From Collybia mongolica (Eukaryota > Basidiomycota > Agaricomycetes > Agaricales > Clitocybaceae), in contig JAAXNY010000002.1 of NCBI GenBank assembly GCA_013420905.1, positions 62,001 through 126,000 of the forward strand: 64,000 nt of DNA, in the 5' to 3' direction. The position numbers and the translations under genes were made by a program. The number at the start of each line of letters is the position of its first letter. Position 1 is the stretch's first letter. The notes below the pieces were generated by a model. It was not told the DNA's origin and searched no databases. It saw only the letters and a list, made by a program, of their open reading frames with translations. This document shows, in pieces, positions 1-60,200 of the stretch.

Positions 1-57
1 GCAAATTAAATAGAAGGAAAGTGGCACAATTGATGTAGATCTTGGCAATATGTGCAG

Positions 58-1872
58 TATGTATGTATCTCTATTTCTCTATATCCATGGCATCCAACTG
101 ATTTCCAGATTGATTTGTGGTGTAGTGGGTGAGTGGCTGTACTTGTCTGCATTCTTGGTGCCAACTGATTTCTGGCTTGATAAATGGTGCAGAATGTAAG
201 TGGTTGTGCTTGTCTGCATCTGTGGGCACAACTCATTTTTGGCTTGATACTGTATATGGTGCAGAATGTGAGTGCCTGTGCTGGTTTGTATTAGTGGGTT
301 GATTTCTGGCTCAATATGTGGTGCAGAATGTGAGTAGCTGGACTTGCCTGTATCTGTGGGCCCAACTCATTTCTGGCTTGATATGTGGTACAGAATGTGC
401 ATGCTGTATTTGTCTGTACCTGAAATCCAAACTCATTTCTGGCTTGATATGTGGTGCAGAATGTAAGTTGCTGTACTTGTCTGCATCTGTAGACCAAACT
501 CATTTCCAGGTTGATATGTGGTACAGGTTGTGAGTGGCTGTGCTTGTCTGCACCTGTGGATCCAACTCATTTCTGGCTTTATATATGGCATAGTTTGTGG
601 GTGGCTGTGCTTGTCTGCATTTGTGGGTCCAACTCATTCTGGCTTGATATGAGGTGTAGTTTGTGAGTAGCTGTGCTTGTCTGCATTTGTGTGCCCAACT
701 CATTTTTGGCTTGATATGTGATGTAGTTTGTAAGTGCCTGTACTTGCTTGTATCTGTGGATCCAACTCATTTCTGGCTTGATATGTGGTACAGCATGTGA
801 GTGCCTGTGCTTGTCTGTATCTGTAGCCTCAACTCATTTAGGTGTGATGTATGCTGCAGGATGTGAGTGCTTGTGCTTGTTTGCATCTGTGGGCCCAACT
901 TATTTCTGTGTTGATATGTGGTACAGTGGGTGAGTAGCTGGACTTGTCTGTATCTGTATGCACAACTCACTTCTGGGTTAATATGTGGTGCAGGATGTGA
1001 GTGCCTCTGCTTGTCTGCATCTGTGGTTCAACTCATTTATAACTTGATATGTGGTGCAGTGGGTGAGTACCTGTACTTGTCTGTATCTGTAGCTCCATTT
1101 TATTTCTGGCTTGATATGTGGTGCAGCATGTGAGTGCCTGTGCTTTTCTGTATCTGTGGGCACAACTCATTTCTGGCTTGACATGGGGTGCAGATAGTGA
1201 GTCCCTGTGCTTGTCTGCATCTGTGGTTCAACTCATTTCTGACTTAATATGTGGTACAGGATGTGAGTGCCTGTACTTGCCTGCATCTGTAGGCCAACTC
1301 ATTTCTGACTTGACATGTGGTGCAGGATGTAAGTGGCTGTGCTTGTTTGCATCTGTGGCCCCAACTCATTTTTGGTTTGGTATATGGTGCAGGATGTGAG
1401 TGCCTGTGCTTGTCTGTAGGCCAAACTCATCCAGATTGATATGTGGTGTAGTGGGTGAGTGGCTGTGCTTGTCTGCATCTGTAGGCCCAACTCATTTCTG
1501 GTGGTGCAGGTTGTAAGTGGTTGTACTTGTCTGTATCTGGGTCCAACTCACTTTGGCTTGATATGTGGTGCAGAATGTGAGTGGCTGTGCTTATCTGCAT
1601 CTCTAACTCCAACTCATTTCTAGCTTGATATATGGTGCAGTGGGTGAGTATTTGTACTTGTCTGTATCTGTGGGCATCCAATTCATTTCTGCTTGATATG
1701 TGGTGCAGAATGTAAGTTGCTGTGCTGATCTACTTCTGTAGCTCCAACTAATTTCTGGCTTGATATGTGGTGCAGGATGTGAGTGCCTGTGGTTGTCTAT
1801 ATCTGTAGGCTCAACTCATTTCTGGCTTGATATATGATGCAGAAGGTTAGTAGCTGTGCTTGTCTGCATTCT
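58..1872 (+). repeat. Tandem array of intron-like ~67-bp units separated by 3-nt 'exons'
   Basis: Degenerate tandem repeat with 28 junctions of the form YAG-NNN-GT. Between junctions lie 27 segments of 55-69 nt, mostly 63-65. Nearly every segment starts with a fungal donor (GTGAGT 18 times, GTAAGT 6, single GTATGT, GTGGGT, GTGCAT, GTTAGT). Nearly every one has a CTNAY branch-like site (mostly CTCAT) about 24 nt before the end, and all end in CAG (23) or TAG (5). The trinucleotide between acceptor and next donor is always exactly 3 nt: aat 7, gat 6, tgg 5, ttt 3, gtt 2, cat 2, tat 1, ata 1, aag 1, with no stop triplet. Positions include 58-60, 126-128, 193-195, 594-596, 1194-1196 and 1843-1845. 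Flanking exons of normal size are not recognised; the array may start before the window. Alternative: a minisatellite with chance splice signals. Confidence 0.85.
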
Positions 1873-2829
1873 GGATCTTTTTACATAACCCACCTGAGCA
1901 ACTCTATACATTGTATGTATTGTCATATCATTGCTAGTATTCTTCCCTCTGCTCAGACTATTTTCTTTCTGACTTAGAAGCTCTTTCCTTCCAATGTTGT
2001 AAAGTCTCTGGAAAACCTGGTCTGCTATTTTTCCATTTATCCAATTATTTAGTATACTTACTCTTATTCAGATACTGAGCTTTCAATCACATCAAGTCAC
2101 TACTCAAGTTGTCCTCTATTCTTGTGGTATGCAGGTCCTATCTGGTGTTTTGGTCATCACATTGATGTTTCTCTTTCCAGCACTGCCACTCATTGCAGAA
2201 CATCTTTCTGTAGTATGGAGTGCCAAATCTGTTACTACTGCTTCAATTACCTTTACTATCAATCTATATCAATGCTCTGCATCCTACCACAAGGTCAACA
2301 AGGCAGTCAGTAACCTGGTCTTTAAATATCATGGGTTAGCTTTTGGCTTGCTAATGTAAACCTTCACTCTCAATACTATTGTAAATTATTAATACTTCTA
2401 TGTCAGGAATTCAAATGCAGCTGTTGAAAAGCTTTTACCAACCATCTTTGAAAGCAGATTGGGTGAACTTGATTCATATATTTACATATTCCTAAGTACT
2501 CATTTTTTTAACTTTCCCTTTTTTTAACAGATAAGGCTGATCTGTGAGGCCTGGATTTAGGACTTCAATAGGTAGAAATAATAGATAGAAATGAGTGTTT
2601 TATTATGAAAGGTTACCTATATCTCAGCTGTTGTATTGTTGGGTTCAATTTTAGCTTCATTTTCTATATGTTAGCAATGCAATCATAGTCACTACAGAAT
2701 ATCAGAGACTAAAGAAATAGAGAGTAGAGGAGATGTAAAAGGAGCATATATGCACCCCATGTCTAGTTGCTCAGATACACCTTGCATTATTGTATAAACT
2801 CTCATATGCTGCTGTATACCTCAAGACTA
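1873..2829. other. AT-rich stretch, no gene recognised
   Basis: Follows the intron-like array. Two overlapping short ORFs at 2122-2359 have no recognisable family. A possible acceptor (YAG near 1955 or 1975) could close the last donor of the array at 1846, but no coding continuation is clear. A short piece at about 2755-2829 resembles sequence near 28710 and 50390, so this is partly repeat-derived. Confidence 0.5.
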
Positions 2830-3415: not shown

Positions 3416-5023
3416 CAGTGGCTCAAAAAACTGCCCCAATGTTTGTACATTTTTGAAAGATCAATATGGTATGAAGTGCTGACATAAGCAGGGGACCTGG
3501 GGTAATTATGTAAGATACTATGACATCGTGGCTTTCCAATGGACCCTGGATCATGTGATTTGGATCAAAACCCATTAAGCTATAGGCCAAACAAAATGAT
3601 TACTCATTGGGGCAGTTTTTTGACCCTCTATTAATTTTCTATCTAATACTTTGTATGACCACCTTTTGCCTTTATAACTGCTTGTATCCGCCTGGGCATA
3701 CTTTCTATCAGGTTTTGGCATACCTCTGGTGGAATTTCACCCCACTCTTCAGCCAATCTATCCCACAACTCATGTACTCCTTTGGGTGGTGTCGGATATT
3801 CTTTAAGACGGCGCTTGAGATGTTCCCAAAGGTGTTCTATTGGATTCATGTCAGGGGATTGGGCAGGCCAGCCAAGGACTTGAATGTTGTTGTCTTCAAA
3901 CCACTGTGTGGCCAGTCCAGATGTGTGTTTGGGGTCGTTATCTTGCTGAAAGTAGCGCTCGCCATCCACCATTTCCAACTTCTCAAAACTTTCCTGAACT
4001 CCACTCTCCAAAATTTCACAGTATTGAACCTTGTCCATGTTCCCCTGCACCTCTATGAGCTTTCCCACTCCATTCCACCCCATACAACCCCATACCATGA
4101 GGTTTCCTCCTCCTCCATGTTTGACAGTAGGTGATGTTGTTCTATCAGATGGTGGTTCTCCCCTTTGTTTCCAGACATAAACCTTTCCATCTGACCCAAT
4201 CCTATTGATTTTGGTCTCATCTGTCCATAGAACCCTTTTCCAGTCCTCCACAGTCCAGCTTTCATGATATTTTGCAAACTGGAGACGCCGGATGCGATGG
4301 GCTCGTTTGAGAAGAGGAGCTTTCCTCTTTGTAGCAGCATAAAATTGATTTTCCTTGAGTGCATTTCTGACTGTCTGGGGTGTGACAGGATTGGGAATGA
4401 TGCCATTGATGAATTGGGTAGCCTGAACTGCATTATCAAGCTTCCCTGACTTGATTTGACGAATAATTGACTGTTTGTCACAAACAGACAGCTTGGAGGG
4501 GCGGCCACCAAGGTTGTTTTCTTTGTTTCCATCCACATCTTTGCTGATCCTACTGATGGTACCCTTCCCTAGACCAGTTTTCTCCTTGATTTGACGCTGA
4601 GAATAGCCCTCATTGAGGAGAGAAACAACAGTATTGTGCTGAGCAGTAGAAATGGCTTTCATGATGGTGGTAAGAGGTCAAGAAGATGATTGAACCAATT
4701 CCAACATGTCAAATTGATACAAATAAAGTCACATGACATTGTTTATTCTTCCCACAGTCCATAATGTTCTTGCATTGGATCATAAATGCCAGAATAATGG
4801 AAAATAAGATAAGGGTCAAAAAACTGCCCCAATAAGTAACCATTTTGTTTGGCTTATAGCTTAATGGATATTGATCCAAATCACATGATCCAGGGTCCAT
4901 TGGAAAGCCACGATGTCATAGTATCTTACATAATTACCCCAGGTCCCCTGCTTATGTCAGCACTTCATACCATATTGATCTTTCAAAAATGTACAAACAT
5001 TGGGGCAGTTTTTTGAGCCACTG
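3416..5023 (-). mobile_element. Intact Tc1/mariner-type transposon, copy 1
   Basis: A 1,608-bp element flanked by the TA target duplication (3414-3415 and 5024-5025). It has long terminal inverted repeats of about 211 bp (3416-3626 and 4813-5023). Each TIR is itself bounded by inverted copies of a short motif: TCAAAAAACTGCCCC on the outside and GGGGCAGTTTTTTGA on the inside. It encodes one uninterrupted transposase on the minus strand. Outer ends read CAGTGGCTCAAAAAACTGCC. The same terminus starts another element at 63946, and a related family member is at 26667-28284. Confidence 0.93.
3643..4662 (-). CDS. Tc1-type DDE transposase, copy 1
   Basis: 339-aa transposase that would excise and reinsert its element at TA sites in the nucleus. 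The N-terminal part (about residues 5-120) is helix-turn-helix rich, with a first motif like SLLNEGYSQRQIKEKTGLG, a GGRPSKL hinge and a second HTH-like segment. The C-terminal catalytic domain shows LWTDETK (first Asp, about residue 149), FQQDNDPKH (second Asp) and SPDMNPIEHLW (Glu). Second Asp and Glu are separated by 34 residues, the DD34E arrangement of Tc1. Length is normal for the family and there are no breaks, so it may be active. It fills most of the space between the two TIRs and is the only gene of the element. The homologue at 27027-28046 has the same length and clearly the same fold but is diverged. Confidence 0.95.
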   Translation of the reverse strand: MKAISTAQHNTVVSLLNEGYSQRQIKEKTGLGKGTISRISKDVDGNKENNLGGRPSKLSVCDKQSIIRQIKSGKLDNAVQATQFINGIIPNPVTPQTVRNALKENQFYAATKRKAPLLKRAHRIRRLQFAKYHESWTVEDWKRVLWTDETKINRIGSDGKVYVWKQRGEPPSDRTTSPTVKHGGGGNLMVWGCMGWNGVGKLIEVQGNMDKVQYCEILESGVQESFEKLEMVDGERYFQQDNDPKHTSGLATQWFEDNNIQVLGWPAQSPDMNPIEHLWEHLKRRLKEYPTPPKGVHELWDRLAEEWGEIPPEVCQNLIESMPRRIQAVIKAKGGHTKY

Positions 5024-5129: not shown

Positions 5130-5925
5130 CACTGTGCACCTGGTGGGGGAGGTTTATCCCCCACTTAATGGATGAAAGCAGCATTTCCTAAGTTTAGTGG
5201 ATGAATCTAAAGGGTATGAAATTGGGATCAAATTTCTTTCCAGATATTTCATCTCTTGAGAGGATGAATTTCTGCTCTTATAATTTCAGAAATTTTCATC
5301 CCTTAGTGGTGTGAACTTTCATCCCATTAGAGGTGAATTATATGGGACAATTTTAATCCAGTGAAAAAGAGGGGAATTTCATCCTATAAAGGGTGGGTTT
5401 TATTAGATGATTTTAATCTATTAGAGAGTGAACTTTCATCCCATAAAAGGTGGAATATGTGGGATGATTTAAGTTCAGCATAGAAGGTACACAAATAGTG
5501 GGTTTATGCTGTACTTTACACTGAGCCACATGTTTGTGGACTCACTTACTTTTCTTTACTATTATAAATTACTTACTTTGTTTCTTACTGACAATTCTAT
5601 ATAGATTGATAGTAATACTATATATTGATACTAAATACCATACATGATAGTAAATACTTAATTTAATATAGGCGGGGGCACCTGCCACCCCCATCATCCT
5701 CATCGCCATTGTTTTCGGCACCAGGTGGTGTAGGATGGGCCCCCATGGCATCATCAGTGGCCTGGGTAGCAGTGGCAGTGGCACTGGCATGGTCCAGTAC
5801 TGGCCGCTTTTTTTGCCATTGTCCCCATTGTCCTTGTTGTCCTTGTGGTGGTGCCCATGGCATTGTCAGTGGCCCGGGTAGCCTGGCTTCTTGAGCAATG
5901 TTACAAGTTCTTTAGTTTACTAAAG

Positions 5926-6809
5926 ACGAGTTCTTTATCAACCCAGTTTTCGGGCAGAAAGGTGATTCACTCATTCATTCATTCATTCATTCATTGATTA
6001 ATATTTCAACACCGTGGGAAAATATTTCCATAATGGGATTTTTCTTCTCTTATGGCTTTTTACAGCATTTCTCCACAAATACAAAGTATTGTGACATAAT
6101 TTGCATGTATTTGGGATGCTTACATAATGCCTTTGATGATGCCATCCAAATTATGCATATCTAATATTTCAAAGCATTGTGTTTCAAAATTTATTTTGTG
6201 ATTTTCTCCATAACCAGTAAAGCTATTAACTTTGTTTTTATATGTTTGGAATATACAAACATGGCTCTACAATTTCCTTGTTGAGCACATTTTTCCCACA
6301 GTCTATTTTGAGCGAAATATTAGAAATGTCCAGATTCAGCTAGTTTTGAAGGTCTGTGTATTATACCAAAGATGAACAAACATCTTATAACAACAATGAC
6401 CCTGACCAAACATGACCCTTGTGGGAAATTATCCTAAACATTGGAAAAATCAACAACTACTACTATATTTACCTGAAATACAAAGAGGATTGAATTCTCT
6501 ATTTATTGACATATGTCACATGATCTATTCCATCACATAAGCATACCAAATACATGACAACAATCTGAATGCTCATTTAGTGTCCATGATCCTGGGAAAA
6601 GTAAGTTCTGATGGTTTTTGTGCACAGGCAATGCTTGTTTGCTTGGTAACATTTTCCCATGGTCACATGACCTTTATAAACTATCATCTACATTGTTTCT
6701 AGTCATTTACAACTTCCTGAATGTGGAATGGACTTATTTCTCCTAAGAAAAGAAATAAAGAACAAGTACCTGCCACACAGTGTGTTGGCCTGGCCCACTC
6801 CACCCAAGT
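5926..6809 (+). repeat. Dispersed repeat D, copy 1
   Basis: About 880 bp, present again in inverse orientation at 29068-29938. It starts near CGAGTTCTTTATCAACC and ends near CCCACTCCACCCAAG. It includes an (ATTC)n run at about 5968-5995, where the other copy has (AATC)n. No coding capacity is seen. Ends are not inverted repeats. Confidence 0.75.
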
Positions 6810-10154: not shown

Positions 10155-11365
10155 GTCCGATGAAGGAGGCTAAGGAACACGCTAGACCTACGACTAGGTC
10201 GCGTTCCAAGAGACAGCCAGAGGACCGAAATAAAAACAGAAATAGTCGTCAAGAAAGTAACGATTCGGAGAGTAGTCGGGATAGTAGCGAGGAGGAGTTG
10301 GTAGCGCCGTCTCCTAGGAAAAAGAAAGTAAAATTTGTTGAACCATCAGTAAAGTCTCCAGTACGAAAAGAATTACCCTACATTGATGTGCCTGTGGTAC
10401 CCTACATACCCCGGAGAACGGAACGCAACCCTGAACCAGTTGATCCGCTACCTAATTTTAACACTAAGCGCAGTCCGACTTATGAAACTAAGTCCCCGAT
10501 AGAAGTAAAATTAAAAGGTGGCGATATAATTGCTAAAGTGTTAGACAACCCTATCACATTGACCACGGGAGAGTTTATGGGCTCGTCAAAAACCATTAGA
10601 GATGGGATAAAGAATATTGTAACTGCCAGACGTAAGTCCCTCACCCAAAGGGACGCTAACTTGCAAATAAACGGAATAGATGAGGAAGACGTCTTACCCT
10701 TTGGAGGGGACTGGGAACTTGATGATAACTACTTACGGCATGACGCGCTACCAGTAGAGTCAATCCCATTCCAGTCTTTCTTCATCTCGGAGTATGACCG
10801 CGGCGGAATACCTAAGGGATCTATAATATGCGGAGACCCAGTCCTACAGTATTTAGAATCTTTACCAGCTGGGGAAGAGCCCAAACAGTTGTATGTAGCA
10901 AAAGAATCGGCCTCTTTGCGCGCAGTATATCCAGTAATAAATGGGGCAGGAACGGAGGAATCTTTATTAGATGGGGGATCCCAAATAGTATCAATGGCTA
11001 AACAAACGGCTTTAGACTTAGATATTTCATGGGATCCGGACGTTGTCATACACATGCAGAGTGCTAATAAACAAGTTGAGAAAACAGCGGGATTAGCGCG
11101 CAATGTTCCTTTCTTGTTTAATGACATGGCCATCTACCTCCAAGTACATATCATAAATTCACCCGCATACAAAGTATTGCTCGGGAGACCATTTGATACA
11201 CTCACGGAAAGTCAGATCAAAAATGCTTGGGACGGGGGACAAGTAGTCACTATCACGGACCCTAACACGGGACGAAGGTGTACTATCCCTACCCATGCAA
11301 AGGGATCACCGCCTAAGCTGTTGAAAAGACAACCGGAGCAGGATTTTCGGCCTTCGATGAATTAA
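10136..11365 (+). CDS. Protease-like ORF of gypsy element
   Basis: About 400 aa; the first ATG is at 10160 but the frame is open from 10136 and overlaps the end of gag by 19 nt. The N-terminal part (to about residue 70) is basic and Ser/Glu rich. The C-terminal third contains [18 protein letters not shown] near residue 269, which resembles the catalytic loop of a retropepsin-like aspartic protease (usually D-S/T-G; here D-G-G-S). It is followed by a region like [10 protein letters not shown] (about residues 348-358), typical of the second half of fungal gypsy proteases. It would cleave Gag and Pol. It ends at 11365 and overlaps the pol frame (-1 relative to it, open from 11317). Confidence 0.75.
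10142..10148 (+). promoter_or_regulatory. Candidate -1 ribosomal frameshift site (GGGTTTC)
   Basis: In the gag frame the bases read G GGT TTC AAT TAG, matching the X XXY YYZ pattern. The heptamer ends 3 bases before the gag stop. The -1 frame (GGG TTT CAA TTA GGT CCG ATG) is open and runs straight into the protease-like ORF, whose frame is open only from 10136. Confidence 0.65.
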
Positions 11366-14300
11366 TCCAAAGTGATCAAGGAGAGCTAGCCGTAGAAATT
11401 GCTGAAGATGAGAACGGAAACTTTATTATAACGGGTTATAGACACCCTACTGATAAACGGAATTTTGGTCACAAAGAACTTAGAGATGTCTTTTTGTCTA
11501 GAAGTGATGTGAACATGAATAGTACAGTACCTGAACGCGAATTACTAGCCACGTACTTGGCTTCCGTAGATGAGCGCGATGGACCAGTAATAAACTACGA
11601 GCAGAACAGCAGCGACCCAGCAAGTACACCCACTAGACCTATGACATACGCTCAAGAACAGCCCATGATCGATAAAGCTTTAAGTAAATTAAAGCGGTGG
11701 CAAATTGGCACCAACGAGCGCGGTCTTGGAACTGCAACAAGTGAAAAGTGTAATATTGAGCCCATGGATCAGCTAGTAGGAAAGAAGTATAAACCAGTAC
11801 ATTTGAAAACAAAACCAACACTGGCAGACCTGCCGGATAAATTTAGAATTATCAGAGATATAAAGGGTGACCCTTTAGCGGCCCTACCCGTTCTAACGCC
11901 TAACCCACCTCCGTTTAAACCAACTGGAAGGTATACTGAGGAAAGGCGCGCGGAATTCCAAAGGGTACACGAAGAAGAGAGCTTCTTAAAACCTAAAGAG
12001 ATGGATATAATCCACGACTTTATGTGCAAACATAATGATGGTTTTGCCTGGAATGATAGTGAGCGCGGTAGCTTTAAGAAGGAATATTTTCCTCCCGTCG
12101 AGATACCAGTAGTCCCACATACGCCGTGGACAGAAAGGAACATTAGAATCCCACCAGGGATCTATGAAGATGTTTGTAAAATCATCAAAACTAAAATTGA
12201 TGCAGGAGTCTATGAGAGATCCAATTCATCATATAGGTCTAGATGGTTTACCGTATTAAAGAAAGGCCCAGGAAAGAAGCTTAGAATTGTACATAGTCTA
12301 GAACCGCTGAATGCAGTCACAATAGCGCACTCGGGCTTACCACCCGCTACCGAAGAACTAGCAGAACACTTCGCAGGGCGCGCTTGTGGCGGAATGATGG
12401 ATCTATATGTAGGATACAATGAGAGGCCTTTAGCAGAAACCTCGCGCGATCTAACCACGTTCCAAACACCGTTTGGCGCGCTGAGACTAGTAACACTTCC
12501 TATGGGATGGACGAATTCAGTTCCAATATTTCATGATGATGTCACATACATCCTACAGGATGAGGTACCACATGTCACAATACCCTACATTGATGATGTA
12601 CCCGTGCGCGGTCCAGCAACGCGCTACGAACTGCCGGACGGAACAGAAGAAGAGCTACCTGGTGCTCCAGGTGTTAGGCGCTTCTTCTGGGAACATATGC
12701 AAAATGTAAATCGCGTCGTACAGAGAATGAAGTATTCTGGAGGAACGTTTTCAGGATATAAGTCTATGTTATGCGCAAGTGAAATTCTAGTGGTAGGACA
12801 TAGATGTACCTATGAAGGACGAAAACCTACTACTGATAGAATCGGTGTAGTTGAAAGATGGGGACCATGCAAAGATGTCAGTGAAGTACGCGCTTACATG
12901 GGAACTATTGGTGTATGCAGGAATTTCATTAAAGACTTCGCCCGTATAGGCCAACCAATTCAAAAGTTAACTAGAAGTAGTGAACCTTGGATATGGGGGC
13001 CTGAGCAAGAAGAAGCGCAGCAGCTATTGTTAGACGCACTTAAAAATAGTCCCGCGCTCCGTCCAATTAATTACACCTGGAATACGCCAGTGGTATTGTC
13101 AGTAGATACGTCATGGAAAGCCGTAGGCTACTATATCTATCAGGAAGACCCTGATATACCTGGAAGAAAGCACTATGCTAGATTTGACTCGATAACTCTG
13201 AATGAGCGCAAAGCGCGCTTCTCACAACCCAAACGAGAGCTATTCGGATTGATGAGAGTTCTAATGGCATGTTATTATTGGTTTATTGGAGTACGAAATT
13301 TGGTAGTGGAAACGGATGCAAAGTACATTAAGGGGATGTTATCAAACCCAAGTCTAGGACCTAATGCAACGGTAAATAGGTGGATTGATAGGATACTTAT
13401 GTTCCACTTTACTCTGGTTCATAAAGCTGGTAAAGGCTTTGGCCCAGATGGTCTGTCAAGACGAGACGCGCGGCTAGGGGATCCTGTCTACCCGGACCCA
13501 GACAATGGTTACGACGAACCCTCAGGTCCTTTAAGGTTTATCAACCCAACGGAAGGATTGGATGACCCTTTGGAGCTGTCAGATTTTAAAGAGGAGATCG
13601 ACACGCGCGGCGGATATTTATTCCAACTTGCGAAGGAAATCTCTGATTTTGAAGTTGAAGTAAACAATGCCTGGGCTGGTGAAGCAGCATTTATTGGAGA
13701 AGTAAAACAGCACTTAGGTTTAGGACGGTTCGGTATTCAAAGAGAAGCTTATCTAAAGCAACTTGTAAATACTACTGTCATACCCGATGAAAAGTTTAAA
13801 TATGACCCTAATGTAAGGGAAGTATATGACGAGTCTAAACGAACACCTACGGCGCAGGAACAGGATAAAAACCTACCTTTAATAAAAGAATGGTTAAAAA
13901 GACCACAAAAGAGACCAAAAGGAATGACGGATCGCGCCTACCTAAAGTTTGCAAGGCAGGCGTCTAATTTCTTTTTGGATCCAGAAGGCAGGATGTATAG
14001 GAAAAATATCGATAGCGCGCACCAGCTTGTTGTTGATAAAAATCACCGGACATATATGATGAAGGCGTCTCACGATTCTGTTGGACATAGGGGTTTCTAT
14101 GCAACAAAATCCTTAATAGATAAAAGATTTTGGTGGCTAGAAATGGAACGCGATGTATCATGGTATGTGAAGTCATGTCACATCTGTCAGACAAGGCTCT
14201 TAACTTTGTTGAGAATCCCTCCTGTCATAACCCACACGCCGTCTATATTCCAAGTATTGCATGCGGACACCATGTATATGAGCCCATCGTCTAACGGTTA

Positions 14301-15360
14301 TAAATACATTGTCCAAGGAAGATGTGCGCTGTCTTCGTGGATGGAAGGCGCGCCCCTCAAATCTGAGGATGGCAAGACCTTGGGAAGGTGGCTGTTTGAA
14401 GAAGTAATTTGTAGATGGGGTTCCCTAACGGAAATTGTAACGGATAATGGTCCTGCCTTTGTCGCAGCCAAAGCGTGGCTGGAATCCAAGTATGGTATTA
14501 CAGGAATAAGTATATCACCATACAATTCCAAAGGAAATGGGATCGCCGAGCGCGCACATTGGGATGTGCGTCAAGCTGTCTTCAAAGCTACAGGTGGTGA
14601 TGTAAAGAAGTGGTACTACTTCTTCCACCATGTAATGTGGGCTGACAGAATTACTATACGGAAAGGGACGGGTTGCTCCCCCTATTTTATGATTACGGGC
14701 GCGCACCCAACCTTACCGTTAGATATTATCGAAGCCACTTGGTTAGTAAAGTTACCAGGAAAAATATTGACTACAGAGGAACTCATTGGATTTAGAGCGC
14801 AGGCTCTAGCTAAGCACGTCCAGCATGTGGCTGATATGAGGAAACGTATCAATATAGAAAAACGAAGGAGACTATTACAGTATGAGAAGGATCACAGCGC
14901 GACCATCAGAGACTATGATTTCAAACCAGGAAGTTTAGTACTAGTTAGAAATACCGAGGTCGAAAGTTCGCTCAATAAAAAGCTGAAGCCACGGTACCTG
15001 GGACCAATGATAGTCCTTAGACGAAACCGCGGGGGAGCCTATATTGTTTGCGAAATGGATGGATCGGTGTGGCAACATAAAGTGGGGGCGTTTAGGGTTA
15101 TTCCCTATTTTGCTAGGAGTACAATTGAACTGCCGGATAATCTGCAAGATCTAATAGACATCTCTAGCGAAACACTAAATGCTTTAGTGGAATCGAAAGA
15201 TCCCGCTAATAGGCAAGTTTACAAGGAGCGTGACTATACGTTTGACAGAGTCCAATTGGATCAGTCCGATTCAGAGTCAAGCTCTAGTGAGAACACTGAG
15301 GAGGGGATAGCGCCGGCGCTACCACAAACTACTATGTCACACCGGAAGTTGCATAGGTGA
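11317..15360 (+). CDS. pol: Pol polyprotein: reverse transcriptase, RNase H, integrase
   Basis: Open from 11317 in the -1 frame relative to the preceding ORF; no good ATG opens it and no clear slippery heptamer is seen at this second junction. Counting from 11494, reverse transcriptase has a first Asp in [15 protein letters not shown] (about residue 300), LPMGWTNS, and the catalytic YIDDV (about 364). RNase H has [19 protein letters not shown] (about 532) and [11 protein letters not shown]. Integrase has the zinc motif HDSVGHRGF...SCHICQTR (about 858-895) and the acidic triad in [15 protein letters not shown] and GIAERAH (about 925, 983, 1019). A GPY/F-like segment ([10 protein letters not shown]) follows near 1165. 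No chromodomain is recognised. The tail is acidic and Ser-rich. Uninterrupted, so potentially functional. Confidence 0.93.
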
Positions 15361-26666: not shown

Positions 26667-28284
26667 CAGTAGCTCAAAAAACTGTCCCAATGTTTGGTCA
26701 TTTTATAATGATTTACTTATAACAGAGTACTGGAGATTAAAATCATTCTGAGAAATATATATATGATACTACACTATATTAGCTTTGAAATGAGCCCCTA
26801 CTTTCCTCATTTGAATAAAAACTCATTTCATAACAAATTGAACAAAATAATTACTCATTGGGACAGTTTTTTGACCTATGCTTAATTTTGGCAAGATCTT
26901 TACTGCAGCAAGCTTTAACATCATGTGATGTATTGTGGGAACAATAAACAAAGTCATGTGACCATGTTGATATAAATTCAACATGTTTCCATCATTACAA
27001 TCATTCTTTCTTTCCCCCATCATCCCATGAGACCTACATCTTCTACCCAATGCCTTTCTGTGATCTCCCTTCTTCAAGAAGGCTATACCTTGCATCAGAT
27101 CCAGTCCAAAACCATTCTGGGAAAATCTACCATTGGGAGAATCAAGAAGGAACTGGATATGGACAAGGAAAACCACAGGGGGGGACGTCCTTCTAAGCTC
27201 TCTCCTGGTGACAAATGGTCAATTATTCGACAAATCACCACTGGAAGGCTTGATAATGCTGTAGAGGCCACCCATTTCATCAACCAAACTCTTCCCAACC
27301 CTGTCACACCCCAAACAGTCAGGAATGCACTCAAAAAGAATGACTTTTGTAGTGTTGTCAAGAGAAAACATCCTCTTCTCAAAAAGGCTCATCAACTGCA
27401 ACATCTTCAATGGGCAAGATACCATGAAAACTGGACAGTGGAGGATTGGAAAAGGATCTTATGGTCAGATGAGGTCAAAATCAACAGGATTGGGTCAGAT
27501 GGAAGGACTTATACTTGGAAGAAGAAGGGAGAACCACTTTCTGACAGAACCACCACTCCTACTGTCAAACATGGAGGAGGAAATAATCTTATGGTGTGGG
27601 GTTGTATGGGGTGGAATGGAGTAGGAGTGCTTACAGAGGTCCAGGGGATTATGAATGCAGACCAATACTGCCAGATTTTGGATGGGGGAGTAGTGAAAAG
27701 CTTTGAAAAGCTGGAGATGCCAGAGGGAGAGAGGATGTTTCAGCAGGACAATGACCCCAAACATGCATCCAACAAGGCAACCAAGTGGTTTGAAGACAGC
27801 AACATTGATGTTATGGTCTGGCCAGCACAATCCCCTGACATCAACCCCATTGAACATCTCTGGGTAGTGTTGAAGAAGGCACTTAAGAAATACCCAACAG
27901 CCCCCAAAGGAGTACATGAGTTGTGGGATAGGGTGGTAGTGGAATGGAATGGAATTCCACCAGAAACATGCCAGACACTTATAGAAAGCATACCTAGAAG
28001 GGTTCATGCAGTTATTAAGGCAAAAGGTGGTCATACCAAGTATTAATTGTGTAAATAGAGACTTTGGAGATGTAGGTCAAAAAACTGTCCCAATGAGTAA
28101 TTATTTTGTTCAATTTTTTATGAAATGAGTTTTTATTCAAATAAGGAAAGTAGGGGCTCATTTCAAAGCTAATATAGTGTAGTATCATATATATATTTCT
28201 CAGAATGATATTAATCTCCAGTACTCTGTTATAAGTAAATCATTATAAAATGACCAAACATTGGGACAGTTTTTTGACCTACTG
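26667..28284 (+). mobile_element. Intact Tc1/mariner-type transposon, copy 2
   Basis: 1,618 bp flanked by TA (26665-26666, 28285-28286). TIRs are about 210 bp (26667-26876 and 28075-28284). As in copy 1, each TIR is bounded outside by TCAAAAAACTGTCCC and inside by the inverse motif. One intact transposase gene on the plus strand. CpG-poor, so older or more modified than copy 1, yet without stops. Confidence 0.92.
27027..28046 (+). CDS. Tc1-type DDE transposase, copy 2
   Basis: 339 aa, co-linear with the enzyme at 3643-4662. N-terminal helix-turn-helix segment (SLLQEGYTLHQIQSKTILG), GGRPSKL hinge, second DNA-binding segment, then catalytic motifs LWSDEVK, FQQDNDPKH and SPDINPIEHLW giving a DD34E triad. 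The C-terminus is IKAKGGHTKY, as in copy 1. Conservation of an open frame in a CpG-depleted setting, where neighbouring genes have collected TGA stops, suggests it entered later or has been under selection. Confidence 0.94.
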   Translation: MRPTSSTQCLSVISLLQEGYTLHQIQSKTILGKSTIGRIKKELDMDKENHRGGRPSKLSPGDKWSIIRQITTGRLDNAVEATHFINQTLPNPVTPQTVRNALKKNDFCSVVKRKHPLLKKAHQLQHLQWARYHENWTVEDWKRILWSDEVKINRIGSDGRTYTWKKKGEPLSDRTTTPTVKHGGGNNLMVWGCMGWNGVGVLTEVQGIMNADQYCQILDGGVVKSFEKLEMPEGERMFQQDNDPKHASNKATKWFEDSNIDVMVWPAQSPDINPIEHLWVVLKKALKKYPTAPKGVHELWDRVVVEWNGIPPETCQTLIESIPRRVHAVIKAKGGHTKY

Positions 28285-40917: not shown

Positions 40918-43900
40918 ATGGGCAGTAAGACAGTGCTTTGTGCATGTGGCTGCGCCAAAAGGGTCAACTACAGGACTGAGAGCTGGCACTTGAAAGGGAA
41001 AGGGCACTCTCACCTCACATTGAAAATCCTATCACAGAACCAGTCTCTTATCCAGAGCCTCAACCAGGAAGATCAGCCCCAATGGAAAATGTTGTCCTGT
41101 CCCCATCCCAAGCATAAAGTTATTGGATCCACCCCCCACCCACAAGCCTGACTAGCAAAGAAACCGGCCCCTAGTTCTACAAAGGGCAACGCCTCTTTCA
41201 GCTCTCAAAATAATGCAGAAGAAATTATTGATAATTTGACAGGCGAGGCAGGACCATCTGGATTTCATGACAGCTCTCCTGATCCACCATTGGCGCCATC
41301 CTTACCTCCATTGGAGGATTGCTCAAACAAATATGGCTTGTCCAACTTACGCCGCTCTTCTCGCATTGCAGGACATATCAATCAACTCAGCCAGCAACGG
41401 TGGGGGCTTAATTCAACACAATGATTTACTGTTGATGAGGATGATGGGGATAGCAACGATGACGAGATTGGATCTAGAGAAGACAAAGGCAACAACAATA
41501 TGGGGGGGACTTCAATGGTTCCAATGAAGACTTTGGGGAAGACAGTGATGGATTTGAAACGCCAATTGCAGAGGCAAGCCAGGCAGGAATCTCAGTATGG
41601 GATCTCCTTGGGGAGGGATTTATGAAGGAAGTCTTGCAATTAGGTATGTACATTGTTATCATTATGTGCATCATATTAACTAGTTTACAGACCAAATGCT
41701 AGATATGAGTGATATGAAGCTCATCCAGTTCTTTGCCCTGAAAGTTCAAGATGGCCTAATGGATAGAACATTCCAGAAAATCTGCTATATAACTTCAACA
41801 GAATCGCTGAAGAATACACAGAAACATATTCAGTTTCTCTCTGGTTTTCAGCCTGTACGCTATGACTGCTGTCATTCATCTTGTGTCTGCTACACTGGCC
41901 CATACAAAGCCCTCAAACAATGCCCTAAATGTAATTCCAACCACTATAAATCTGATGGGACAACACCCTATTCATATCTAGAGTATCTCCCTATTATTCC
42001 CCAACTCCGTGCAATGCTTGGAAATTTCTCATATGCTCGAAAAATGCAGTATTGATCCAATCACAAACATGACCCAAGAAAAATGACAGATATCTTTGAT
42101 GGCACCCATTATCAACTACCCCAGAAGACATTCGTTACAATTGGTGACGAAGAACTTCCAGAGTGGTTTTTTTCTGATCCTTGTGATATTGCTCTTGGGT
42201 TATCTACAGACGGCTTTGGTCCTTTCAAGTGCCATACCAAGACAGCATGGCCTATAATCATGTTTAATTATAACCTCCCTCCTGAGGAATGCTTTCTCAA
42301 GGATAACATAATTTGTCTAGGGACTATTCCAGGGCCCAAAAAGCCTGACAACGCAAATTCATTTTTTTGGCCTGTAGTTCAGGAGCTTCCGCAGCTCAAG
42401 ATTGGGGTTTCAGCCTTCGATGGAATCAGCAAAGAAATCTTCCTACTTCATGCTCACCCCATCGTTGTCTTTGGCAATATTCCTGCAATGTCAATGCTCA
42501 TGCGCATGAAGGGCCACAATGCAATATATCCATGCCAAATGTGTACTATTTGGGGAGTTCGCATTCCCTTTTCACAAACAACAACACACTATGTTCCATT
42601 GTGACAAAATGGCTTTCCAGACCCTCAACAACAATATCATGCATCCACACTTCTACTATGAGACCATGCAACATTCTTAAGACAAGCAAAGAAGGTCCAA
42701 TATGCCTCAAACACTGCAGAATCTGAATGCCTTACTACTAAATATGGTGTCAAAGGCATTCCACTACTCAGTACTTTGAGTTCCCTCTCTTTTCCAGTCT
42801 CATTTCCCTATGACTTTATGCACCTTATATGGTCCAATCTCATTCCAAATCAGATTTCCCTGTGGACTGGAAATTACAAAGATCTTTCCCATGATGGTGC
42901 AGGCTATGTGTTAGCACCAACTGTATGGGAAGCTATTGGTCAGGCCACAGCAAAGGCTGGGGATACAATTCCTGCAGCATTTGGTTCAAGGGTCCCAAAT
43001 ATTGCATCAGAAAAGGCACAGATGATTGCTGAAACCTATTCAATCTGGACTTTATATATTGCACCAACTCTCCTTAAAGGACGATTTACAAGTCCACAAT
43101 ATTATACACACTTTATTAAATTAGTTAGGTTATTAAACCTTTTCCTTCAATTTGAGATTACTCAGGATCAAGTTGATGAACTTGAAAGGGGTTTTAATAG
43201 CTGGGTTGAGAAATATGAAGAGCAAGTATTTTGATATATATTTAATTTTGAACATGATCTGATGATTTTCCAGGTTGTACTATAACCATGATCCAATGTG
43301 GGTATCTACATGTCCTCTAACCATCCATGCCCTTCTACATATTGCACCAACTATTAGGGCATATTGGGCATTTCCAATGGAACGTTATTGTGGTGACCTC
43401 CTCCACCATATTAAAAGTCGAAGGTTCCCCTATCCAAACATCAATAGCTATGTTACTTCTTGTGCTCATTTAACACAAATAACTCTCCTCTATGACTTGC
43501 ATGGAAAGCTTGACCTCCTCCCCCCTAAATCTGATGAGAGGAACATCAGTTTTCCCCTATGTATGTTTCCTGTCATAATCAAGTACTTATATACTCATTA
43601 GCTTGATTTAGACCCATTACATATTTTCACCCCACCCAAGGGACTAATATGTCTCCCCACTCCCCTGTGGAAAGTACTTACAGCAACACTAGCTACTCGA
43701 TTCAGTAAACCTGCATCACTTATCAGGAAACTTATACCTCAGGATACCAAATTTATCCAATATGGCCAGATGCATCATCTAGAAGGAGGTGATACAATAC
43801 AAGCACGTGAAATTATTCCACTTAGATCAGACAGCCAGGATATGTCATATGTCCAGGTAGGTTTCTTTCTAAAATGCTCAATGCATATTGCTAACTTATC

Positions 43901-45104: not shown

Positions 45105-45681
45105 CACTGTGCACCTGGTGGGGGTGGTTTTTCCCCCACTTAATGGATGAAAAGGGTTTTTCCTAAGTTTAGTGGATGAAATTAAGGGGTATGAAAATAG
45201 GATGAAATTTCATCCCACATATTTCATCCTTTAAGAGGGTGAAATTGTACTGTTAAAATACCATCTATTAATGGAATGAATTTTGTCCCATAAGGGGTGA
45301 AATATATGGGATGATTTTCATCTAATAAAAGGGGTGAATTTCATCCCATAAAAAGGGATGTATGGGATGATTTTCATCTAATAAAAGGAGTGAATTTCAT
45401 CCCATACAAGGGGATATATAGGATGATTTTCATCCAATAAAAGGAGATGTATAGGATAATTTTCCTGTATTTTACAGTCCCCCACATGTCCTTGTGGACT
45501 CTGCACAGACTCTGCATGGACTCCACAGAGTCTGTGCAGACTCACTTACTTTCTTTTACTATTATAAATTACTTACTTACATATAAGAGTTTACTTACTA
45601 TTTTATTTACTAATGTTCTACATACATTGATAGGATAATATCATATATTGATAGTGAACATGATACATTAATAGTAAGATA

Positions 45682-48589: not shown

Positions 48590-49163
48590 TGAAGTGTGTT
48601 TATTGATAACAGGGAAGAAAGAATGAATTCAAATTTAAGTGATGTAAATAGCATGAAATTAATCCCCACAAAAGCTATTATTCTCACCTGCAATGGTATG
48701 AAATTCATCTCTACAAAAGCTATTATTCTCACCTGTAATGGTATGAAATTCATCCCTACAAAGGCTATTATTTTCACCTATCATGGTATGAAATTCATCC
48801 CATAGCCTTAAAAATTTATAGTAATGTTACCCCAAAAAAACATTGCTATTTTCATTGATCAAGGTATTAAATTAATCCCATATTGGTAGGAATTACCTCC
48901 CACAATGGTTGTTTTTTCCACCTATGGTGGAATGAAATTCATCCCATAGTCTCAACAATCAGGGGTATGAATATGGACAAATTTTGTATGAAATTCATCC
49001 ACTAAATCATACCTTAAGGGGGGGTTTTTCCTCCTTTTTTTCCCTCCACAGAGGGTGTTTTTTCATACATCTTTGGGATGAAATTCATATATTGATGTGT
49101 TAAATTCATTACTTAAGGGGATGAAATATGGGTTGAATTTCATCCATTTCCAGTTTCACAGTG
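48590..49163 (-). repeat. B-type terminus of E2
   Basis: Subterminal units such as GGTATGAAATTCATCCC repeated in tandem (about 48650-48800), C/G-rich loop, and end TTTCACAGTG. Confidence 0.75.
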
Positions 49164-49339: not shown

Positions 49340-49895
49340 TAAGAGAGCTTTCAAATTACAATATCTTAGATCTTATGAATGTTAAACCTTAACTGTACAA
49401 AATGGATGAAGTATATTTATTGATAACAGGGAACAAAGAATGAATTTAAGTGATGTAAATGACATGAAATTAGTCCCCACAAAGGCTATTATCCTCACCT
49501 GTGATGGTATGAAATTAATCCCTGCAGAGGTCATTATTCTCACCTATCATGGTACAAAATTCATCCCTACCAAGGCTGTTATTCCCACCTGTGATGGTAT
49601 GAAATTCATCCCATAGCCTCAAAAATTGGCAGTAATGTTACCCCAAAAAACATTGCTATTCTCACCCATCAATGTATTAAATTAATCCCATATTGATAGG
49701 ACTTTACCTCCCACAATGGTTGTTTTTTCCACTTATGGTGGAATGAAATTCATCCCATAGCCTTGAGAATCAGGGGTATGAATATGGACAAATTTCATAT
49801 GAAATTCATCCACTAAATCATACCTTAAAGGAAGGGTTTTCCCCCTTTTTTTCCCTCCACAATGGGTGTTTTCATCCATTTCCAGTTCCACAGTG
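49340..49895 (-). repeat. B-type terminus of older element E0
   Basis: Subterminal GGTATGAAATTCATCCC-like units and end CCAGTTCCACAGTG at 49895. It closes the element into which E1 and E2 were inserted; its left end is not in evidence. Confidence 0.65.
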
Positions 49896-57261: not shown

Positions 57262-60200
57262 CTACTCTAAACAGGGCTCCCAGAAGACCCCAAAGGCCTC
57301 CGGGTTGTTGTGTAGGAAGTTGCTGACCCAGACAAGAGTCAGCGTCCTCCCGGGCCGGGTTTTCCGCTGGTATAGCGGACAGTGCCGGAATACGTGTTCT
57401 ACAGTCTCCTTTCCGAGGCTGCAGTCGCATTCGTAGGTCTCTTTCTCCTTAAGGAACCTTTGTCTGTACGTGCCAATCGGCGCGTGGCCCGTTAGGGCCC
57501 GCGCTAGCCTGACGGTATTACTGGTGTTGGTGGACACCTTTCCGATCCAAGTCCCTCCTTTCAGGTGGCTTGGCAATAGCTGCTTACTCCCTTCGTGGAG
57601 CGGCAAGAAGTGGGACCCTATGTAAGACTTTTGCTTGGCCAATTCACTCCAAGCGTCCATCATACGCAGGACCACGTCCACCCTCGCCTTAGCAAGGGAT
57701 GTGTGTTTTACTTCTCCGTGCGGAATCTCCATATTGGAGGCCACTTCATGGGCAAGTACGTGTTCGCGCACCTCGCACGCCTTTGGTGTGTGGTGCAGAG
57801 TGATACTGGCGTCTGGTTTAACTGTTAGCCAGTAAGCGAGTTTGGCCGATACGTTGGCGGCCCATTTGTGTGCCATGTGATGCGTCGGGTCAACGACCAG
57901 TTTGATTGCATTCATGGAGTCTGAGAAGACATCAATTTTCCGGATGTCTAGGTTAGGGATGCCGAGGGCCTCGTCCACCCCTTTCGAGATGGCGCAGGCC
58001 TCAGCATTGTCCGAAGTGGCATTCCCACAAGGGGCAATGCCATTATACAGTATACCGTCCGACCAGACTCTCCAGGCTGAAGTAGCCTGGAGGTCTTCGG
58101 ACCGCGGAACGGACCTGTCGCATATGATCGCGACTCGTTTTGGGTCATGCTTAGCTTCGTTGATTCGGTTAGTGAGAACTTTCCCGAAATCAGCGAAAGC
58201 CTTCTTCCTCTTCTCCTTCTCTTCTTTGGGGGGAGGGGAGGGTCTGATCTCCACCCTCTCGGCGGCCCAGTCAAGTAATTGACTGCCCGGTTGCGCGAGG
58301 GGGAACACTGGGGATGCATCATTGCTGCAATCCTTTAGTCGGGCAAATGAATCCATTATCCCGGATTTGATTCTGCGCCTCTTGGCGACAGACATGCGGC
58401 TGACTGACAGGTGTGCCTGTCCATCAATTAAGTTCCTGACCGCGTGGCTCTTGGCCAAAGTCCGGACGCGGTAATGGCTCCTCTCCACCAACTTACGGAT
58501 GTGCAAGTGGATGGGCGGAAGGCCTGCGAGGGTCTCTGGGGCCCCTTTCGGGGTGGTCCTGAAGTTGCCTGTGATCCATAGTGCAGCCTTTCGTTGCATC
58601 TTACGGAGTGCTTTGAGGTGCCCTTTGATGCGGGCCCCATCAATGTTCCATAACCGGCATCCGTACGTCGCAATTGGAAGTACACAAGACTGGTACAGAG
58701 TTCTTTTGTGCACGGGCCTTAAGCCCCGTGTCGAGTTTCCAAGCGCTAACAGGGCCCTGCTTGAGGTCAGGGCCTTGTTCACGTACATCTCCACGTGTTT
58801 CTTGAACAAAAGCGCGCGGTCAAAGTAGAAGCCTAGGTATCTCCACAGGAGCCCCGGTTTCAGAGGGGTGGCCCCTGTATAGGGGGCATGGCCGAGATCT
58901 ATGGTCGGATTGTCATCCGATTTTAGAAGGCTGAAATGGAAGCCTTCTGACTTTGCATGTTCAAGGATCAGGCCCATGGCTCTCGTCATGAGGAAGATGA
59001 TGTTGTATGCTCTCTTGAGCATATCGTTGTTGTTTTCCCACGTCTTCAACTGGGATATGATGGTCCCGTCGTCGACGTAGGAGATGAGGTCAGATTCATT
59101 CCCATTCCGTCTATAGAACTCTTTTATGAGAATGGCTAGAACGAGGGCCGACAGGATTGGGGATAGGGCGGAGCCCTGTCCCAGTCCTACGCTCAAATCA
59201 AATGGGGGGGATTCGTCATCCCCCCAAACATATCTGGTCTTGCGACCCACCAAGTACGACCGGAAGAACGCGACTATTTCGGGCGCGAACCCCTGGCCTT
59301 CCAAGATGTTGATCATCACCTCGTGGTTGATCGAGGGGAAAAATTGGGCGAGATCAAATGCGACCACGCTTGTCTTGACCCTCCTTGTCCATCCTTCGCA
59401 GACAATGTGGGTAAGGAAGACTCCGGCATCTTCGGTGGAGTTCTGACGAACACCACCGAACTGATTTGGGTGTAGTACTCCTGCCGCTTGTGCTTCAAAC
59501 TGCAAGTGGGTGGACAGCATTTTCTCAATAAGCTTGCCCAGCGTGTTTAGGAGCACGATGGGTCTATAAGACTTAGGGGTGTCGTAAGTCGCCTTCCCTG
59601 GCTTTGGGATGATGACCGTGCGCGAGGCTTTGAAGTGTTCCGGCCAGTGTCCGCATGACAAGCATGCGTTTGCCAGCCAGACTATGACAGCCTGGGCTTC
59701 GGGTCCTATGAGGAGCCGTTTCAAATGCCTCCAGGTGATGTTGTCCGGCCCAGGGGCCGAACTGTTTGAGGTGCCCTGAAGGGCATCCCTCATCTCCTTG
59801 AGGCTAAATTTAGTCCAGCCCCTGGTCGCGGGGGCCTTCCATTGGTCGCCCATTTCAGCCATGTTGGTTGGTCTGTCGTGTGCGGAGTTGAATGTACTGT
59901 GGATGGCGTCCCACAGCTCTTCGTTTGTGTTGCAAGGGTTGCCATTATGATTGATTGTGACGGCAGCAGGCATCTTGCGAGGCCCTACCCAGTTCATGAG
60001 GTCCCAGGGCCTTTTAGTGGTGTGAGACACTTCCTCTATGCGTTCATCAAAGAAGACCCTCTTGGCTTGTCTGGTGGCCCTCTTTAGAGCCCTCCAGTCG
60101 TCCCGTTCGTTAGTGAACATGGCCATCTCCTTCGCCTCCGTGCAGGTCGCATTCCACCAAGGCTTGGATCGGGCGCTTACGCGCCCGGCCTCGGCGAACT

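Follow-up and report, generated by a model that had tools for sequence, protein, structure and literature searches.

The window, a 64,000-nt stretch of the Collybia mongolica genome, contains near its 5' end an array of 28 triplets, each placed directly between an intron-type acceptor and an intron-type donor. Judged from the DNA sequence, these triplets are very probably true single-codon microexons that are spliced and translated into a hypervariable linker. In the mechanism we propose, the array would form the middle of a GTPase gene, and each unit would consist of a normal-sized fungal spliceosomal intron (~60–70 nt) and a 3-nt phase-0 exon. The introns would be recognised by intron definition and taken out one by one, giving an mRNA in which the last GTPase exon (..YFPHYV) is followed by ~20–40 single codons and then by the C-terminal exons. 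In the product, a linker would then connect the G domain to a helical C-terminal domain. Additionally, the array would probably change in size by whole units, each worth one residue with the frame kept.

The window array and its host gene

The features of the window gene are as follows.

Upstream of the window (6345–6443 of the 10-kb region L009, which covers the window locus): exon F, the last GTPase-domain exon, ending TATGTG/GCAAGT in phase 0 (exon anchoring)
1..57, + strand: 3' part of the intron linking exon F to the array (exon anchoring)
58..1845, + strand: array of 28 one-codon exons with 27 introns of 55–69 nt between them (junction scan, free-length segmentation, chain test)
58..60, + strand: first one-codon exon, TAT (Tyr) (junction scan)
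1843..1845, + strand: last one-codon exon, AAG (Lys) (junction scan)
1846..1977, + strand: last array intron, GTTAGT...CTTAG, 132 nt (alignment of flanking exons)
1978..2019, + strand: exon G, KLFPSNVVKSLENL, phase 0 at both ends, donor GTCTGC (translation, alignment)
2072..2126, + strand: exon G2, ILSFQSHQVTTQVVLYSC plus one base, with a phase 1 end before the conserved GTG/GTWTRY donor (alignment)
2181..2335, + strand: exon H, (A)LPLIAEHLSVVWSAKSVTTASITFTINLYQC..., C-terminal domain of the GTPase family, 3' limit tentative (translation, alignment)
Triplet starts: 58, 126, 193, 265, 327, 394, 460, 527, 594, 660, 727, 794, 860, 927, 994, 1060, 1127, 1194, 1260, 1326, 1393, 1452, 1510, 1574, 1641, 1709, 1776, 1843
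Array codons in order: Y W N N N N N V F F F H D W D W H I D D D W V N W N D K

A regular-expression scan of the first 2 kb returned 30 YAG-NNN-GT sites, two of which (292 and 1195) fall within units and were discarded. The remaining 28 junctions, with 27 introns between them, agree with an earlier note on this DNA, which had claimed exactly three bases between YAG and the next GT at 28 junctions. The junction scan also confirmed its count of nine kinds of triplet (TAT, TGG, AAT, GTT, TTT, CAT, GAT, ATA, and AAG) and its finding of no stop among them. Of the span 58..1872 given in that note the start holds; the end does not, since the last triplet occupies 1843–1845 and the last intron runs to 1977. 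One donor of the array is weak, GTGCAT at 397. The longest junction chain in the array region contains 28 junctions. No chain exceeded 5 when that region was dinucleotide-shuffled 300 times, and the maximum is 2 on the + strand of the remaining window and 3 on the whole − strand. Tandem Repeats Finder reports the same region as a 67-nt repeat at 94–1869. That the array is not an ordinary minisatellite, as had been proposed, is borne out by constraint tied to codons and splice sites, namely the junction geometry, the chains, the absence of stops, and the use of TGG and TAT described below. A repeat at the protein level (63 nt = 21 codons) was rejected on the sense-strand stops present in each unit (TGA in GTGAGT, TAG) and the varying unit length; the long open frames found in the arrays are antisense.

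On translation, the array flanks show a GTPase with a G domain (GRFRVLIIGRANAGKTT, HDSRGFEAGG, VFTKCEAL). Among named proteins, its nearest homologs are annotated ones from Collybia nuda and other agaricomycetes. The host genes are ordered as exons A to F, the array, G, G2, and H, with a G domain at the N-terminus. When six homologs were scanned with Pfam MMR_HSR1 (PF01926, cut-off 21.9), P0002 (24.8) and P0045 (22.5) passed, P0022 (20.8), P0020 (19.6), and P0078 (19.0) scored just under the cut-off, and P0041 gave no match. The host family thus corresponds to the agaricomycete G-domain or Era-like GTPases, in which a G domain precedes a C-terminal domain; the array-bearing genes differ from ordinary members in having the array within the linker.

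The exons on both sides of the array are phased. In all 14 anchored loci, exon F runs up to a donor in phase 0, its last bases being ..TATGTG or ..CATGTG, and exon G begins directly after AG in 13 of the 14; at the fourteenth, L019, only exon H was found and the G anchor is a guess. The alignment from exon G to exon H spans 15 loci. The boundaries of exon G2 were set by hand from this alignment, after which its coordinates and the open G+G2+H frame were checked; the three exons of the window gene, when joined, read open. These phased exons support the first option of the earlier note, that the array is spliced and contributes one variable codon per unit. They also leave room for a different reading, in which the whole array is one long intron between exons F and G, an intron-like tandem repeat with untranslated triplets: exons F and G would be joined in phase 0, so that skipping the array would also preserve the frame. 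The arrays are tandem repeats as well, in line with this reading, which we nevertheless consider very improbable for the reasons given in the following sections.

The exon F donor is GC in the window gene and in its copy on contig C18 (L010), which is 99.3% identical and carries the same 28 codons. Exon D of the window gene, which lies upstream of the window, has a one-base deletion at L009 5974 relative to that copy. The GC donor, the weak GTGCAT donor, and the exon D deletion may mean that the window's own copy is dead, or an allele, or affected by assembly error. Over 3.7 kb, the window's copy on C2 and the copy on C18 differ at 22 places; 6 of these fall within array introns and 0 within triplets, roughly what the lengths of these parts would predict.

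Arrays and introns across the genome

The earlier note had also called for other arrays to be sought genome-wide. In the genome of the window (46 Mb, 26 contigs), 72 scored DNA matches to the window array were found on ten contigs including its own. We examined 20 regions of 10 kb and then eight smaller ones, one of which (L035) merely extends another (L032), so that 27 loci were covered. An array was defined as at least six chained junctions, by a chain finder that scores acceptor and donor only and never the triplet. Arrays are present at 23 of the 27 loci, L010 among them, and L012 has two. This gave 23 arrays with 6–41 triplets each and 524 triplets in total, all belonging to one GTPase family, with L010 excluded here and from all other counts except the 14 anchored loci. 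Seventeen of the 23 hold 21–41 three-nucleotide exons each, some with one or more unclear junctions between; such junctions are skipped by the chain finder and lie outside the 524 triplets. Joined in order, the codons of one array (L026) read TWDLEYLDDPYLLEYEHELLDPLDRE.

At least one exon of the GTPase family lies beside each of the 23 arrays; for L012a, L014, and L021, only the C-terminal ones are present in the stretches examined. Some copies are short or decayed (L011, L021, L027), and no intact array was found in the stretches examined of L011, L029, L030, and L036. Specifically, L011 has stops in its exons and retains 4–5 units, too few for a measurement of decay. L012 (C6:382001-392000) carries two arrays on opposite strands: its minus-strand half comprises GTPase exons and 8 one-codon exons, and its plus-strand half 19 one-codon exons and C-terminal exons. 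It looks like a gene broken by inversion.

The three-base spacing holds throughout this family. Measured from YAG to GTRDGT in the array regions of 13 loci, the spacing equals 3 bases 312 times, whereas each other spacing between 0 and 40 occurs 41 times at most; the flanks contain 8 cases at distance 3. A segmentation of the interval between exons F and G that allowed any exon length from 1 to 40 nt yielded 336 exons of 3 nt and at most 7 of each other length. The exons of other lengths were placed in the interrupted locus L023, at the margins of arrays, within long first introns, and where junctions inside arrays are weak or lost (L009, L017, L019, L020, L025); the 1-nt 'A' exons are, we think, an artefact of the length limit acting on a long first intron. 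Two junctions are lost in L019 and one in L033, and L017 has one GAG acceptor in place of YAG. Where a junction is lost, the two introns around it would usually fuse, and one codon would be missing from an unchanged frame. In its 3' part, the L032 array contains two weak donors and one place where AG and GT are four bases apart; use of that junction would break the reading frame:

L032/L035 joined, ~2935 (C9): four-base junction of the 75-nt array

The introns themselves differ widely. L034 contains 34 consecutive one-codon exons with intact junctions, and similarity among its 33 introns is just 66% (57% in a shuffled control). The L032/L035 array uses a different intron of ~75 nt, its main part has mostly G-ended codons, and a genome search found no further copy of this intron. 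Such a design, kept through divergence and repeated with a second intron type at the same place of the gene family, is hardly expected of an unspliced tandem repeat, and these observations speak against the single long intron.

Searching the genome with a 21-place signature of the unit start, at up to one mismatch, gave 203 matches, and 0 with the reversed control. All 100 of the matches listed lie at loci of the one GTPase family, so among these 100 of 203 there is no sign that the array intron has spread over unrelated genes, near-identical introns in many unrelated genes being the mark of introner-like elements. The fallback option of the earlier note, an unspliced introner-like expansion, does not agree with this distribution. 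Introner-like invasion could also be an origin compatible with spliced one-codon exons, through repeated insertion of a mobile intron into a coding stretch. In ten arrays with 63-nt units, introns are nearly as alike between arrays (0.776) as within them (0.80), and identical introns adjoin different codons, both as such an invasion would predict. It would, however, have needed insertions every 3 nt and in phase 0, all the listed signature places are confined to one gene family, and the paralog peptides, compared by eye, share no stretch past the first five codons. We regard this origin as quite improbable; units were more likely gained and lost as codon and intron together.

Within-array identity hardly exceeds between-array identity, and array-specific homogenisation is thus hardly visible. 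Block duplications are likewise weak, with 2 of 18 arrays at P < 0.05 without correction (L013, 0.031; L009, 0.041). In the matches listed for L015 (C13:2259001-2269000), ATT is always followed by a GTAAGT donor and the other codons by GTGAGT, so that codon and intron variant travel together there.

Codon signature and hypervariability

The triplets behave as codons. None of the 524 is a stop, compared with 27.7 ± 4.0 stops and a minimum of 13 over 5000 shuffles of the bases within each column of each array. In the joined frames of the first 21 arrays, stops number 0 of 457 in frame 0, 2 of 436 in frame 1, and 105 of 436 in frame 2; given the 2 of 436, stop counts alone cannot favour frame 0 over frame 1. 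The codons next to the stops are more telling. TAT occurs 56 times and TAA 0 times, compared with 120 NAT and 104 NAA for N = C, A, or G (Fisher 1e-13), and TGG occurs 18 times and TGA 0 times, compared with 6 NGG and 32 NGA (Fisher 6e-10); these tests assume independent triplets, which repeats are not. Apart from TGG, G is rare in the third place of the array triplets. Avoidance of stops through splicing alone was considered and is unlikely: with the G of the acceptor, TAT and TGG form GTATGT and GTGGGT, so the same argument would exclude them equally, yet both are common. As a separate observation, NTA triplets number 3 and NTT triplets 99 over all counted loci, and an NTA before GT would create a rival TAG acceptor.

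Third positions follow a codon-like wobble. Two-fold NNY codons end in T or C at a ratio of 188:0 in 21 arrays, compared with 479:319 in the ordinary exons of 10 of these genes; the splice donor may also constrain this third base. The start x-W-N/D-L-E is shared by ten arrays and encoded by TGG in 10 of 10, CTT in 10 of 10, and GAA in 9 with the synonymous GAG in 1, while the introns between these codons are just 64–78% identical. Because the arrays were picked by this start, its conservation in part reflects how they were chosen; the synonymous GAG and the low intron identity fit a coding constraint. L023, one of these arrays, has its five codons split between two distant pieces. The residue composition of the array codons is skewed and rich in E, Y, D, L, R, N, H, and W.

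Linkers of a like composition occur in proteins outside this genome. The JGI proteins P0020 (458 aa, contig of 1727 nt) and P0022 (399 aa, contig of 2583 nt) carry an uninterrupted linker at the same place, following ..WFPH (e.g. LLYHLEYHHREEEEYHHHHHYLEYEEYL in P0020), and their uninterrupted frames on short contigs suggest that both come from RNA. The full-length homologs P0041, P0045, and P0078 have a linker without such low complexity. Five of six annotated Collybia nuda proteins end within ~35 residues after an FPY motif, which precedes the array in the genes of the window genome, and the sixth ends before it. In searches of the protein collection, the linker plus C-terminus of P0020 matched only itself, and the array plus C-terminus of L026 gave zero matches. 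The AlphaFold2 model of P0020 shows a confident G domain, with nearly all of residues 300–371, the linker, below pLDDT 50. A fold search with this model returned GTPases of many kinds (mitofusin, G-alpha, IRG, dynamin-like) with query-normalised TM-scores of at most 0.34 among the best 50 rows; from the model, one would say 'G domain plus helices' and nothing more specific.

The codon evidence bears directly on the single long intron between F and G. Untranslated triplets do not account for 0 stops in 524, for TGG in place of TGA and TAT in place of TAA, or for the P0020 and P0022 linkers. On the side of the spliced one-codon exons favoured in the earlier note, the absence of stops, the wobble, the TGG signature, and the intact junctions of the diverged L034 all agree.

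The codons are also hypervariable. Mismatch profiles were computed for 16 arrays, leaving aside those of fewer than 8 units and L023. In 15 of the 16, mismatch is 0.47–0.79 at codon position 1 and 0.28–0.71 at position 2, compared with an intron mean of 0.09–0.33; that is, the introns are 67–91% alike and the codons vary more. These 15 arrays therefore consist of repeats alike save at a few residues, as in the HNWD-type repeats discussed below. The exception is L025, with an intron mismatch of 0.49, where the triplets vary no more than many intron sites; variability is just moderate for the codons of L012a and for position 2 of L017 and L028. Specifically, L024 has 20 units of equal length with an invariant donor and introns 90% alike, and 70% of pairs differ at codon position 1 and 62% at position 2. 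Among 19 units of L013, the third codon base is constant. Among 52 unit pairs with identical introns, 43 of which stem from L015 and L013, the 5' triplet differs in 29 (56%) and the 3' codon in 37%.

We lean towards selection for diverse residues, as described for fungal NLR repeats (PMC4986451), as the reason why codons outpace introns; a special mutational process or homogenisation of the introns may be the cause instead. A related question is whether the exons, though real and spliced, are now neutral, forming a runaway array under relaxed constraint. The low pLDDT of nearly the whole P0020 linker in the predicted structure, the skewed composition, and the short or decayed copies L011, L021, and L027 all suit such an array. 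Neutrality would, however, predict about equal rates for codons and introns unless the introns are themselves constrained or homogenised, and position 1, and mostly position 2, exceed the intron average in 15 of the 16 profiled arrays; stops, moreover, remain absent. Overall we find neutrality somewhat unlikely.

Relation to known systems and other features of the window

Micro-exon genes (MEGs) of Schistosoma have small exons of mixed sizes and encode secreted products. The arrays resemble them in their many consecutive tiny symmetric exons per gene and their predicted variable product, and the exon lengths and phases agree with a micro-exon gene in the general sense, namely a run of consecutive tiny exons divisible by 3. 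They differ from them in that the exons are 3 nt long, the units are tandem repeats, and the host is a GTPase.

Exons of one codon have been described elsewhere, fungi included, and microexons can adjoin one another. Drosophila hth reportedly has a 3-nt microexon (PMC7392893), the lipS genes of Dactylellina haptotyla have two 3-nt exons (PMC5639578), and human RPS24 reportedly has three neighbouring microexons (PMC12686416, PMC11162997). In these cases there are one to three per gene, in contrast to runs of 20–40 in the arrays. According to one report, hardly any earlier descriptions existed of functional microexons in filamentous fungi (PMC11121469). In the open-access literature searched, we found no report of a comparably long run of 3-nt exons.

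Two fungal systems share single aspects of the arrays. The HNWD repeats of the fungal NLR proteins HET-D and HET-E are highly alike, with a few hypervariable residues under diversifying selection (PMC4986451). They are like the arrays in combining similar tandem units with hypervariable residues; in HNWD proteins, however, the repeat unit is coding, whereas the arrays repeat an intron, and each exon as a whole is hypervariable. Introner-like elements are families of near-identical fungal introns (PMC4457414), as are the array introns; the array units differ in lying head to tail, 3 nt apart, at one gene family in the 100 signature matches listed of 203. With some reserve, we rate the organisation, as it appears in the DNA, as a kind of its own.

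By analogy with such systems, we tentatively consider a recognition role for the linker, in self/non-self discrimination or in the binding of a partner or target. A more specific and less probable version, which we put forward as speculation, is a writable recognition segment in which each residue sits on its own intron-borne unit and can be singly added, lost, or altered with the frame kept, any of the 3-nt exons can be skipped to give many peptide variants from one gene, and the GTPase acts as a self/non-self or target sensor.

Three nucleotides is the smallest in-frame exon, and here such exons come in runs of 20–40. If they are spliced as the sequence suggests, the arrays pose a hard test for the spliceosome, the exons being seemingly too short for simultaneous 5' and 3' splice-site complexes. 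If true, this organisation may also explain why gene predictors miss such segments, as in the Collybia nuda proteins that end soon after FPY, and it would be a new route to protein diversity through an intron-based array whose codons, rather than its repeats, change rapidly. With so many arrays of different ages, old as well as young, in a single genome, the idea can be tested.

Beyond the array gene, the window contains several transposon proteins. It also contains two dispersed tandem-repeat families with ATTTCATCC- or ATTCATCC-like motifs and periods of ~56 and 45 nt.

3646–4677, − strand: DDE_3 transposase with HTH_Tnp_Tc3_2, Tc1-like
11317–15357, + strand: retroelement polyprotein with RNase H and integrase domains
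26976–28043, + strand: DDE_3 transposase with HTH_Tnp_Tc3_2, Tc1-like
42056–42601, + strand: tnp2 transposase
57262–61110, − strand: reverse transcriptase with endonuclease, LINE-like
5311–5470 and 45301–45464; 48653–48801 and 49464–49612: dispersed tandem repeats (Tandem Repeats Finder)
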